A stretch of DNA of 42,778 nt from Clostridia bacterium. GTDB taxonomy: Bacteria > Bacillota > Clostridia > Oscillospirales > Acutalibacteraceae. Below are positions 5,806-41,949 of the stretch, piece by piece; positions within the stretch are counted from its first letter, which is position 1, and every line of letters starts with the position of its first letter. Location of the stretch: assembly GCA_017518415.1 (NCBI GenBank), contig JAFWVC010000038.1, positions 1-42,778 on the forward strand, written 5' to 3'. The notes beneath the pieces were generated by a model. That model did no database searches, had not been told where the DNA came from, and saw only the letters and a list, made by a program, of their open reading frames with translations. The position numbers were made by a program, and so were the translations under genes.

Positions 5806-6240
5806 TCAGTTTTGTGCAATATTTACAAGACCGTTTTCCTCCAAAAACCGGCAAACCCCCTGCGCGATCGCGTCTCGGGTGGCACGGTAGCACGCGATAT
5901 CCCCGCCGTAGGGATCCGGAATACCGTCGCCGAGCACAAAGATTTTTTCAGCCGGTATCCCTGCCTGCCGCAGGATCTGCGCGTGGCCAGGCGTCATCAC
6001 ACAAATCTGATCCGCCTGCGCGCACAGTTCCGCCGTCAGCGAACGGGAACGGTGGGCCGACAGATCGATGCCCCACTCCTTCATCACGGCTACCGCCTGC
6101 GGAGAGGCCGGCGAGCCGTCGGCCGCCAGCCCGGCACTCTGCACCTCGACGTCACAGCCGCGGGCCCGCAGCTCTTTTTGCAGCAGAGCCGCCGCCATCG
6201 GGCTGCGGCAGGTGTTGCCGGTACAAACCACCAGGATCAT
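5806..6240 (-). CDS. ywlE: Low-molecular-weight phosphatase, YwlE-type protein-arginine phosphatase
   Basis: A 144-residue cytoplasmic phosphatase. The P-loop CTGNTCRS starts at C6 (nucleophile) with R12, and the general acid is D109 in PDPYGGD. Ordinary tyrosine phosphatases of this fold have Ile or Leu in the fifth loop position; here it is T10, the feature that gives Bacillus YwlE its arginine-phosphate specificity. The start at 6240 overlaps the ywlG stop as ATGA. In Bacillus ywlE and ywlG are also neighbours. McsB-type arginine kinase, the expected partner, is not in this window. Substrate class is inferred from the loop residue. Confidence 0.88.
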   Translation of the reverse strand: MILVVCTGNTCRSPMAAALLQKELRARGCDVEVQSAGLAADGSPASPQAVAVMKEWGIDLSAHRSRSLTAELCAQADQICVMTPGHAQILRQAGIPAEKIFVLGDGIPDPYGGDIACYRATRDAIAQGVCRFLEENGLVNIAQN

Positions 6241-6788
6241 AGCAACGCTTCGTCGTATACGGCGCGGCTGCCGCCGGTAAACGGCAGGCGCGTGCGGGCG
6301 CACACCAGATTTGCCTGGCCGATCCGGCGGATGCTCAGGCGCACCGGCACCGCCACCCGGCGCAAATGCATACCGATGAGCGTGTCGCCGATATCCATCC
6401 CGCACACGGCCTGCACCGAGGAAACCAACACCGGATGCACCATGCGGGCGTACGTCTGCGTGGCAAAGGAGCCGCCCGCTTTGGGCTGCGGCACGGCGTT
6501 GACGCGCTCCAACCGTTCGCGCAGCTGCACCTCCCGCTCCACCACGAGGGCGCGGTTGAGATGTTCGCAGCACTGTGCCGCCAGAAACAATCCGTTTTCC
6601 TGCAAAACCGGCCAGATCCCGTCGAGTACGGCAGCAGCCGCCTCCATGCTGGAATGGGAACCGATCTTTTCCCCCAGCACTTCGCTCGAAGAACAGCCGA
6701 CCACGAACAGGTCGCCCGGTTCGGGGCGGGCCATGCCGATCAGTTCACGCGCGGCAGCCCGCGCCTACTCCGTTATTTCATGCAACAC
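6237..6788 (-). CDS. ywlG: YwlG / UPF0340 (DUF436) family protein with an in-frame amber codon
   Basis: The body from residue 27 on is clearly this family (GDLFVVGCSSSEV, AAQCCEHLNRA, PQPKAGGSFA, GMDIGDTLIGMHL, RTRLPFTGGSRAVYDE). Reading upstream in the same frame gives LHEITE, then TAG at 6765-6767, then ARAAARELIGMA, which matches the family's N-terminal helix. GGGAGGG lies 6 nt before a GTG at 6788. With that start and the TAG read as an amino acid the protein is 183 residues, the family's normal size. The next ATG (6734) has no ribosome binding site. Either amber is sense or suppressed here, or this is a fresh nonsense mutation or sequence error. The biochemical role of the family is unknown. 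It sits between azlD (17 bp) and ywlE (ATGA overlap). Confidence 0.8.
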
Positions 6789-6805
6789 AAGAATCCCTCC
6801 CGTCG

Positions 6806-7120
6806 TCAGAAATCAATATGCATCAGCCATTCGGTCAAAAATACCGACAAGGCCGATATCAGTGCCACCGGCAACAGCGACAGCCCGATATAAGACAGCG
6901 CCAGCGCCGCCGCCAGACCGACCGCCGCCGACCACACGCTCGACGTCGAATACAGGATGGCCGGTATCGTCATCGCGCCCAGCACGGCATACGGCATATA
7001 GTACAGCCACGAGCGCAGGAAGCGGCTTTTGACGGTATGCCGCAGCAGCGACAGCGGCAGTGCACGCGGCAGATATGTAACCGCCGCCATCACCAGTATG
7101 CCCCATACGTAATAAATCAT
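6806..7120 (-). CDS. azlD: Branched-chain amino acid exporter small subunit, AzlD
   Basis: A 104-residue membrane protein that forms a two-part exporter with AzlC. It has four hydrophobic stretches, and the early YLPRALPL motif is characteristic of AzlD. The start at 7120 overlaps the azlC stop as ATGA, so the two subunits are translationally coupled. It ends 17 bp before ywlG. Substrates of the family are branched-chain amino acids and analogues such as 4-azaleucine; which is used here is unknown. Confidence 0.88.
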   Translation of the reverse strand: MIYYVWGILVMAAVTYLPRALPLSLLRHTVKSRFLRSWLYYMPYAVLGAMTIPAILYSTSSVWSAAVGLAAALALSYIGLSLLPVALISALSVFLTEWLMHIDF

Positions 7121-7821
7121 ACCGCCGCCCCCTGTTCCTCCGGGTGCGGCCACAGCCACGCCGCCAGCAAAGAGGCTGCCAGCGCCGCCGCAATCAGCGC
7201 CCAGCCGGCCGGAATCTCCCGCAGGCCGGGCACATAGTACAGCAGGCAGGACAGCGCCGCCGCCAGCAGCACCGCCAGCAGCACAGGCCGGTCCTTGCGG
7301 GCCGGCGGGATCATGATGGCGATAAACATCGCATACAGCGCGATCCCCAGCGCGGAGGTCAGCGCGGCCGGCAGCACCGAACCAAGCAGGATCCCGCCCA
7401 GCGTGCCGCCCACCCAGCCCATATACGGGCCAAGCGCCAACCCGAAGAAAAACCGGCAGGACAGCTGCCCCGGCTGCTGCGCGGCGAGGAAGAACACCTC
7501 GTCGGTAATACCGTTGGCCATGATCAGCCGCTTATACCACGGGATGCGCTGCATTTTCTGTGACAGCGACAGCGACATGAGCATATACCGGACGTTGATC
7601 AGCAGCACCGTCACGCCGATCTCGGGCAGCGGCGCCCCGCCGGCCATCAGGTTGCTGCCGGCCGCCTGCCCGGCCGAAGTGAAGTTGGTGACCGACACCA
7701 GCAGGATCACCTGCCACGGCAGCCGGCCCGCCATTGATACCGCAAAAGCAAAGGCCACCGGCACATACCCGAGGCAGACCGGAAGCCCTGTGCGAAACCC
7801 TTTCCAAAACGGAGACTGCAT
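7117..7821 (-). CDS. azlC: Branched-chain amino acid exporter large subunit, AzlC
   Basis: A 234-residue integral membrane protein of the AzlC family. The pattern GLPVCLGYVPVAFAFAVS near residue 10-28, and NFTSAGQAAG with LINVRYMLMSLSL further on, are family hallmarks. The start at 7821 is preceded by GGAGAGGG at 5 nt. The gene begins 13 bp after livF, so an exporter for branched-chain amino acids appears to be co-transcribed with the importer for the same compounds. Confidence 0.9.
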   Translation of the reverse strand: MQSPFWKGFRTGLPVCLGYVPVAFAFAVSMAGRLPWQVILLVSVTNFTSAGQAAGSNLMAGGAPLPEIGVTVLLINVRYMLMSLSLSQKMQRIPWYKRLIMANGITDEVFFLAAQQPGQLSCRFFFGLALGPYMGWVGGTLGGILLGSVLPAALTSALGIALYAMFIAIMIPPARKDRPVLLAVLLAAALSCLLYYVPGLREIPAGWALIAAALAASLLAAWLWPHPEEQGAAV

Positions 7822-40231: not shown

Positions 40232-40252
40232 GAAAAAAAGGAGGGATGATCC

Positions 40253-40645
40253 GTGCAGCAACCAGATTTGATGGCGCTGGCCGCCGAGGCCGCTGCCCGC
40301 GCGTACGCGCCTTAGTCCGGCTTTGCGGTGGGGGCCGCTTTGTTATGCGATAACGGCCGGGTCTACACCGGCTGCAATATTGAAAACGCTTCTTATTCTC
40401 TGACCGTCTGCGCCGAACGGGTCGCCGCCTTCCGGGCGGTCAGCGACGGGGCGCGCCGCTTTGTCGCCCTGGCCGTCACCGGCGGCCCGGCGGGCGATAC
40501 CGGGCGCTGCACGCCGCCCTGCGGCAGCTGCCGCCAGGTACTGTATGAGTTCGGCGGGCCCGATATGCAGATTCTCCTGCGGGACGGTGCCTACCGCCTG
40601 GGCGACCTGCTGCCCAAAGGTTTCGGGCCGGAGGCATTGTCATGA
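40253..40645 (+). CDS. cdd: Cytidine deaminase with an in-frame amber codon
   Basis: Deaminates cytidine and deoxycytidine in pyrimidine salvage. From residue 22 the protein is a standard homotetrameric-type enzyme: GFAVGAAL, GCNIENASYSLTVCAE (zinc C53, active-site E55) and PPCGSCRQ (C90, C93). Codon 21 (40313-40315) is TAG, exactly where the family has the Tyr of APYS. AGGAGG lies 8 nt before GTG 40253, and with read-through the length is 130, normal. A restart at the GTG at 40328 lacks a ribosome binding site and would lose part of the fold. Causes: recoding or suppression, mutation, or sequence error. The stop overlaps the pdp ATG as ATGA. Confidence 0.85.
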
Positions 40646-41949
40646 CGATGTATGAGATCATCCAGGCCAAACGCAGCGGCCGGGCGCTGACCCGGGAGCA
40701 AATATCCTTTTTTGTGCGGGGTTTCACCGCCGGCGATATTCCGGACTATCAGGCCGCCGCCCTGCTCATGGCGATCTGCCTGCGCGGTATGACCGCCCGG
40801 GAAACGGCCGACCTGACGCTGGCCATGGCCGCCTCCGGCGACAGGCTGGACCTGTCCTCGCTGCCCGGCGTACCGGTGGATAAGCACTCGACCGGCGGCG
40901 TGGGCGACAAAACCACGCTGATCGTCGCGCCGGCGGCGGCCGCCTGCGGCGTGCCGGTATGCAAAATGTCCGGCCGCGGGCTGGGCCACACCGGCGGCAC
41001 CATCGACAAGCTGGAGGCCATCCCGGGGTTTCGCACCTCTTTGACGCCGCGGCAGGCGATCGTGCAGACCCGCCGCATCGGCCTGTGCGTGGCGGGGCAA
41101 ACCGGCCGGCTGGCGCCCGCCGACAAAAAGATGTACGCCCTGCGGGACGTCACGGCCACGGTGCAGAGCCTGCCGCTGATCGCCTCCAGCATCATGAGCA
41201 AAAAAATCGCCGCCGGCTGCCGCGGCATCGTGCTGGACGTCAAGTTCGGCAGCGGCGCGTTTATGAAAACCCGGCGGGAAGCGGAACAGCTGGCCCTGCA
41301 GATGCTGCGCATCGGCAAGCGGGCCGGCCGCCGCTGCGCCGCGGTTTTATCGGATATGGACCGGCCGCTCGGCTATGCCGTCGGCAACGCCGTCGAGGTG
41401 GCGGAGGCCGTCGAGGTACTGCGGGGCGGCGGCCCGGCGGATCTGCGCGCGCTGTGCGTCACGCTGGCCGGGCTGATGGTCGGTTTGAGCCTCGGCTTGC
41501 CCCGCGAACAGGCTGAACAGCGGGTGACCGCCGCCCTGGCGGACGGCTCCGCTTTGGAAAAACTGCGTCAACTGTGCGCCGCGCAGGGCGGCGACGTACG
41601 CTGCATAGACGACCCCTCCCGCCTGCCGCAGGCCGCCTGCCGCATCGAGGTGCCGGCCCCGCAGAGCGGGTACCTGCTGGCGGTCGATACCGAACAGATC
41701 GGCCTGGCCGCGATGCTGCTCGGCGCCGGCCGGCGCACCCGCGGCGACGCAATCGACCCCGCGGCCGGTATCCTGCTGCGCAAAAAGCCGGGGAACGCCG
41801 TACAAAAAGGCGAACCGCTCGCCGTGCTGCTGACCGATCGGCCGGACGCCGCCGCCGAAGCGGCCGCCAAGCTGACCGGCGCGCTGCGCTTCGGCGCCGC
41901 GCCGCCCACGGCCGCCCCGCTCATCGCCGCCGTGCTGACCGAGGCGTAA
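40642..41949 (+). CDS. pdp: Pyrimidine-nucleoside phosphorylase
   Basis: A 435-residue enzyme that splits uridine, deoxyuridine and thymidine with phosphate. Motifs are KHSTGGVGDKTTL (phosphate site), MSGRGLGHTGGT and LPLIASSIMSKK. The length and sequence match the Firmicutes Pdp group; DeoA (thymidine-specific) is a near relative and cannot be excluded. Its start overlaps cdd, so its translation would be expected to depend partly on ribosomes finishing cdd. Confidence 0.94.
   Translation: MTMYEIIQAKRSGRALTREQISFFVRGFTAGDIPDYQAAALLMAICLRGMTARETADLTLAMAASGDRLDLSSLPGVPVDKHSTGGVGDKTTLIVAPAAAACGVPVCKMSGRGLGHTGGTIDKLEAIPGFRTSLTPRQAIVQTRRIGLCVAGQTGRLAPADKKMYALRDVTATVQSLPLIASSIMSKKIAAGCRGIVLDVKFGSGAFMKTRREAEQLALQMLRIGKRAGRRCAAVLSDMDRPLGYAVGNAVEVAEAVEVLRGGGPADLRALCVTLAGLMVGLSLGLPREQAEQRVTAALADGSALEKLRQLCAAQGGDVRCIDDPSRLPQAACRIEVPAPQSGYLLAVDTEQIGLAAMLLGAGRRTRGDAIDPAAGILLRKKPGNAVQKGEPLAVLLTDRPDAAAEAAAKLTGALRFGAAPPTAAPLIAAVLTEA

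Follow-up and report, generated by a model that had tools for sequence, protein, structure and literature searches.

Stop codons inside bacterial genes have been encountered in several settings. Suppressor tRNAs occur in about 0.3% of bacterial genomes with the standard code, in which scattered nonsense stops lie in intact genes and the release factor is kept (PMC13092985). In-frame stops are widespread in bacterial genes and likely readthrough has been described, including a TAG/CAG case in Paenibacillus; the stops reported there are common to several species (PMC7918605). The bacterial stop reassignments listed as known in one account are of UGA, to Trp or Gly, the codon being found inside conserved genes and scarce as a terminator (PMC8629427). 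In pyrrolysine decoding, an in-frame UAG is read as sense. In the window (the whole stretch of 42,778 nucleotides that was analysed), there is an in-frame TAG in ywlG and a second one in cdd, and at least four more genes of the same genome carry one. As in the suppressor-tRNA bacteria, the stops are scattered over intact genes and the release factor is retained; what sets this genome apart from theirs is that the stops found are TAG only and that searches of its assembly turned up no suppressor tRNA. The Paenibacillus case is matched in having a single TAG at a CAG position with a conserved frame around it, whereas here one genome is concerned and several genes, including polC. This genome resembles the UGA reassignments in that a stop codon appears within conserved genes and seldom serves as a terminator, but the codon here is UAG, its sites are few and have no single meaning, the release factor is intact and the codon still terminates. 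The in-frame UAG with a candidate sense reading likewise recalls pyrrolysine decoding, although no Pyl gene scores over cut-off and the interrupted genes are ordinary household genes. A literature search found no published report of these in-frame TAGs.

The ywlG gene lies on the minus strand immediately downstream of azlD (6806..7159, also minus strand), which is itself preceded by azlC. Its 5' codons read GTG TTG CAT GAA ATA ACG GAG TAG GCG CGG ... ATG, with the TAG as codon 8 (6765..6767), and the eight codons from GTG to TAG (6765..6788; VLHEITE, then the stop) align to the N-termini of relatives. A GGGAGGG ribosome binding site (6795..6801) is placed directly behind the azlD stop (6808-6806) and 6 nt before the GTG (6788-6786), where anti-Shine-Dalgarno pairing reaches -10.8 kcal/mol. 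In contrast, the first ATG after the TAG (6732..6734) has no ribosome binding site, with a pairing value of +0.3 kcal/mol. The rest of the gene (6237..6764) is intact, and its TGA (6239-6237) overlaps, as ATGA, the ATG (6240-6238) of a minus-strand ywlE-like gene for a low-molecular-weight protein tyrosine phosphatase (5806..6240). The preliminary description had claimed a ribosome binding site before the GTG, none before the ATG, and translational linkage of ywlG to ywlE, and the sequence agrees with all of this.

The ywlG product scores over the cut-offs of the curated DUF436 (Pfam) and TIGR01440 models and so belongs to the YwlG/UPF0340 family. When the TAG is read through, the DUF436 score rises from 234 to 239.6 bits; with the codons before the TAG included, the match starts at profile position 3 instead of 14. 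Since readthrough raises this score and 98 alignments to relatives extend across the TAG, the homology of the upstream frame is, as far as sequence comparison goes, more than chance. The nearest relatives compared are up to 72% identical. At the TAG column, 104 distinct relatives have Gln (73), Glu (15), Asp (5) or other residues (11), and none has a stop; the codon is CAG in 58 of them and CAA in 15. At the column of the GTG, relatives have Met in 41 of about 109. Past the TAG the frame is open, and wherever a 40-sequence alignment is invariant (41 columns) it has the conserved residue. Family-like sequence on both sides of the TAG, a position that is often Gln, fitting a single CAG to TAG change, and an otherwise intact gene had each been proposed from the window itself, and the comparison with relatives agrees on every count.

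In a structure model of the readthrough YwlG, in which Gln was written at the TAG (mean pLDDT 94), helix 1 comprises residues 2-20 (block pLDDT 98) and the TAG is residue 8, in the middle of this helix. By the same model, a protein begun at ATG 6734 (residue 19) would lack almost the entire helix; the N-terminal helix that precedes the first strand is predicted only with readthrough and would be nearly absent from the ATG 6734 product. Of the studied homologues, the YwlG of S. aureus (174 residues) is hexameric and a binding partner of the hibernation factor HPF (PMC9522360), and ywlG of B. subtilis influences EF-P modification (PMC5885033).

The second in-frame TAG of the window is on the plus strand, at codon 21 (40313..40315) of the cytidine deaminase gene cdd (40253..40645), and falls on the Tyr of the PYS motif of aligned cytidine deaminases. 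The gene has a GTG start behind a GGAGGG ribosome binding site (40240..40245), and its stop is overlapped by the start of a gene for pyrimidine nucleoside phosphorylase (40642..41949, plus strand), with which it apparently forms an operon. No relative with a match at the TAG position has a stop there.

A scan with a self-trained codon model covered 1.168 Mb of the 1.703-Mb genome (69%) and 870 good ORFs. Six in-frame TAG interruptions were found, in ywlG, cdd, the tail of rpoB, polC, a nifS-like gene and a lipoprotein gene, and no TAA or TGA interruption was found in the 1.168 Mb scanned. The 870 ORFs end in TGA (480), TAA (371) and TAG (19), and four of the 19 TAG-ended ORFs are unlike gene ends, namely rpoB, the cysteine desulfurase-like (nifS-like) gene, polC and the lipoprotein gene. 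In rpoB (genome G000, contig C58, 13056-13058, plus strand), the TAG stands before the conserved acidic tail: behind SSVANEG and the stop the frame goes on with LDGYTMEDPELADGDLF, in all for 36 codons that correspond to the acidic tail of relatives, until a TAA just ahead of the rpoC ribosome binding site. In this column 16 of 29 relatives have Asp or Glu at the place of the TAG, and one matching relative has a stop in the compared stretch, a TAA. The nifS-like gene (C46, 9276-9278, plus strand) is interrupted in the middle, AVRRAAP being followed by the stop and AVVHCDAVQAFGK, and each half matches its own half of PF00266. There is no stop among the matches listed from 60 relatives, and the TAG column is variable among relatives. 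Two nifS-like paralogues elsewhere in the genome have no stop in the compared stretch. The lipoprotein gene (C57, 8401-8403, plus strand) has its TAG after an acidic run and a 110-codon continuation without a second start; it is the weakest of the six cases, because it is without a confirmed homologue.

The polC gene (C75, 10915-10917, minus strand) encodes 1435 residues, scores over the cut-offs of PolC models and is the only PolC gene in the genome. Its TAG is in mid-gene, at a position occupied by Gln in PDB chain 9qpc and by His in Geobacillus, and none of the PolC copies listed from about 52 relatives is interrupted by a stop. PolC is essential in Firmicutes. In the assembly, in-frame TAGs thus stand in several intact genes, including essential ones, as natural amber suppression would have it.

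How far this pattern departs from chance can be gauged from the other stops. Stops that are followed by in-frame coding sequence without a start signal make up 4 of 5 cases for TAG vs 5 of 97 for TAA/TGA (P = 1.4e-4); the five TAA/TGA cases without a clear start signal we take, judging by sequence, to be ordinary tandem-gene junctions. In the relative G007, TAG is followed by coding sequence without a start signal in 0 of 4 cases. By codon counts, random single-base changes would give 53% TAG, 33% TAA and 14% TGA, and the TAG share would be 59% if transitions were favoured. Against this expectation, interruptions by TAG only in six of six have P = 0.02-0.04, a restriction to TAG of the kind expected of amber suppression, and without ywlG five of five have P = 0.04. 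The contrast is suggestive, not strong: it comprises six sites, and ywlG itself prompted the search.

As a terminator, TAG ends about 15 of 866 genes (1.7%), though it accounts for 15% of the stop triplets between genes; in relatives of similar G+C, it makes up 5.1% of terminators vs 18% of the stop triplets between genes. This scarcity is permissive rather than diagnostic, because bacteria in general make little use of TAG (PMC9348620). Several of the TAGs are clearly genuine terminators, among them that of an apparent MutS gene before MutL and that of the gene before rpmF. Backup stops showed no excess behind TAG terminators; one gene that ends in TAG is directly followed by TAA (C57, 10853, plus strand).

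RF1 is present with its PVT and GGQ motifs and looks ordinary. An Rfam search of the whole genome found 34 tRNA genes. No CUA tRNA was detected by that search, by ARAGORN on the tRNA loci, by an anticodon/T-arm pattern or by a home-made cloverleaf search; of four pattern hits, three lie in known tRNA genes but not at the anticodon, and the fourth appears to be a chance match. This negative is weak, because an assembly rated 99% complete likewise yielded no tRNA for Ile, Phe, Asn or Cys, and part of the expected tRNA set would lie in gaps. An altered tRNA-Gln(CUG) and an altered RF1 were both considered and set aside, as neither looks out of the ordinary.

The polC gene narrows the choice. No living cell could bear an unsuppressed nonsense mutation halfway along its only copy of an essential polymerase gene; hence either UAG is translated here or the assembly has a wrong base. 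The first of these, by which the ywlG TAG would be one of a set of tolerated amber mutations with UAG leaky or suppressed in vivo, is our best explanation, and we put it just short of an even chance. It draws on what the assembly contains, namely the codons themselves, homology on both sides of them, the restriction to TAG among the interruptions found, the presence of RF1 and the scarcity of TAG terminators. A tRNA pairing with UAG, whether hidden in a gap between contigs or of a type that such searches miss, would compete with the intact RF1. Misreading would be cheap with TAG ending fewer than 2% of genes, and single-base changes of CAG, GAG or TAC/TAT to TAG could stay viable. Translation of ywlG would begin at GTG 6788 and, with some efficiency, continue beyond the TAG to give the full 183 residues with helix 1. 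We infer that the codons are real and that they are read through, and likewise infer the tRNA responsible and the residue it inserts.

The second, that this metagenome-type assembly has base errors or bases of a minority strain at the six TAGs, where the real codons are sense, is a substantial possibility, held by us with less than even confidence. Such errors would account for polC. The genome is split into 121 contigs, its contamination is estimated at 3.3%, the ends of contigs overlap one another with 91-99% identity, and the whole 32,678 bases of contig C4 form a perfect inverted repeat, most likely an assembly artefact. These signs of trouble, the failure to find a decoding tRNA and the mixed ancestral residues favour error. 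The sites correspond to Gln, Gln, Tyr, Asp/Glu, a mixed position and one without an assignable residue, which counts against readthrough; ancestral codons of several kinds, all a single base away from TAG, are as expected of scattered nonsense changes or of errors alike. Errors, however, should have made about 41-47% of new stops TAA or TGA, and none was found (P = 0.02-0.04): six TAGs need about 4e-4 errors per base, a rate that predicts about 3.8 TAA and about 1.6 TGA interruptions as well. Moreover, homology checks over about 242 kb of coding sequence gave a single weak frameshift candidate, in a scan biased by its many queries homologous to the interrupted genes. The TAG-only pattern and the few TAG terminators favour readthrough, for sites that are all known from one assembly.

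Two further explanations fare worse. A plain nonsense mutation in ywlG seems to us unlikely, whether translation ends with the seventh residue and a restart at ATG 6734 supplies some protein, or ywlG is a young pseudogene. Deletion mutants of ywlG are viable in both B. subtilis (PMC5885033) and S. aureus (PMC9522360), in-frame stops are no rarity in bacteria (PMC7918605), and restart some 30 bases past a stop is plausible in principle. Set against this are the bare ATG, the predicted cost of nearly all of a confidently modelled helix and a downstream frame without decay; polC and the other TAG sites would also be left unexplained. Full reassignment of TAG to sense, or pyrrolysine at TAG, has six genes with in-frame TAGs and the few TAG terminators in its favour, and we regard it as very improbable. 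The PylD and PylS models match weakly, below cut-off, and the general tRNA model found no tRNA-Pyl in the whole genome. Reassignment would entail one amino acid at the sites, RF1 lost or changed and TAG no longer a terminator; instead, RF1 is present, about 15 genes end in TAG, and in-frame TAGs number about six in 870 ORFs. With no one amino acid fitting the sites and with TAG still in use as a terminator, reassignment is not established here.

Sense decoding of the ywlG TAG, as the preliminary description envisaged it, is therefore upheld in part. One codon in one assembly cannot show it. At least five more genes with a lone TAG, and no TAA or TGA counterpart found, speak for it; the want of a CUA tRNA in the assembly, the intact RF1, the remaining TAG terminators and the lack of one fitting amino acid speak against. 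Readthrough of UAG could even mark an ambiguous intermediate on the way of UAG from stop to sense, with TAG nearly gone as a terminator, RF1 kept, and ambers accumulating, in essential genes too, and decoded by a putative tRNA. We consider this stage doubtful.

If the codons are errors, they warn that a metagenome assembly may imitate recoding through lone in-frame stops, against which a count of all three kinds of stop is an inexpensive safeguard. If they are real, an essential polymerase gene of this gut-type bacterium needs UAG readthrough to work, and the organism would offer a natural, testable case of amber suppression alongside the standard release factor, in or close to the ambiguous stage of codon-reassignment models.
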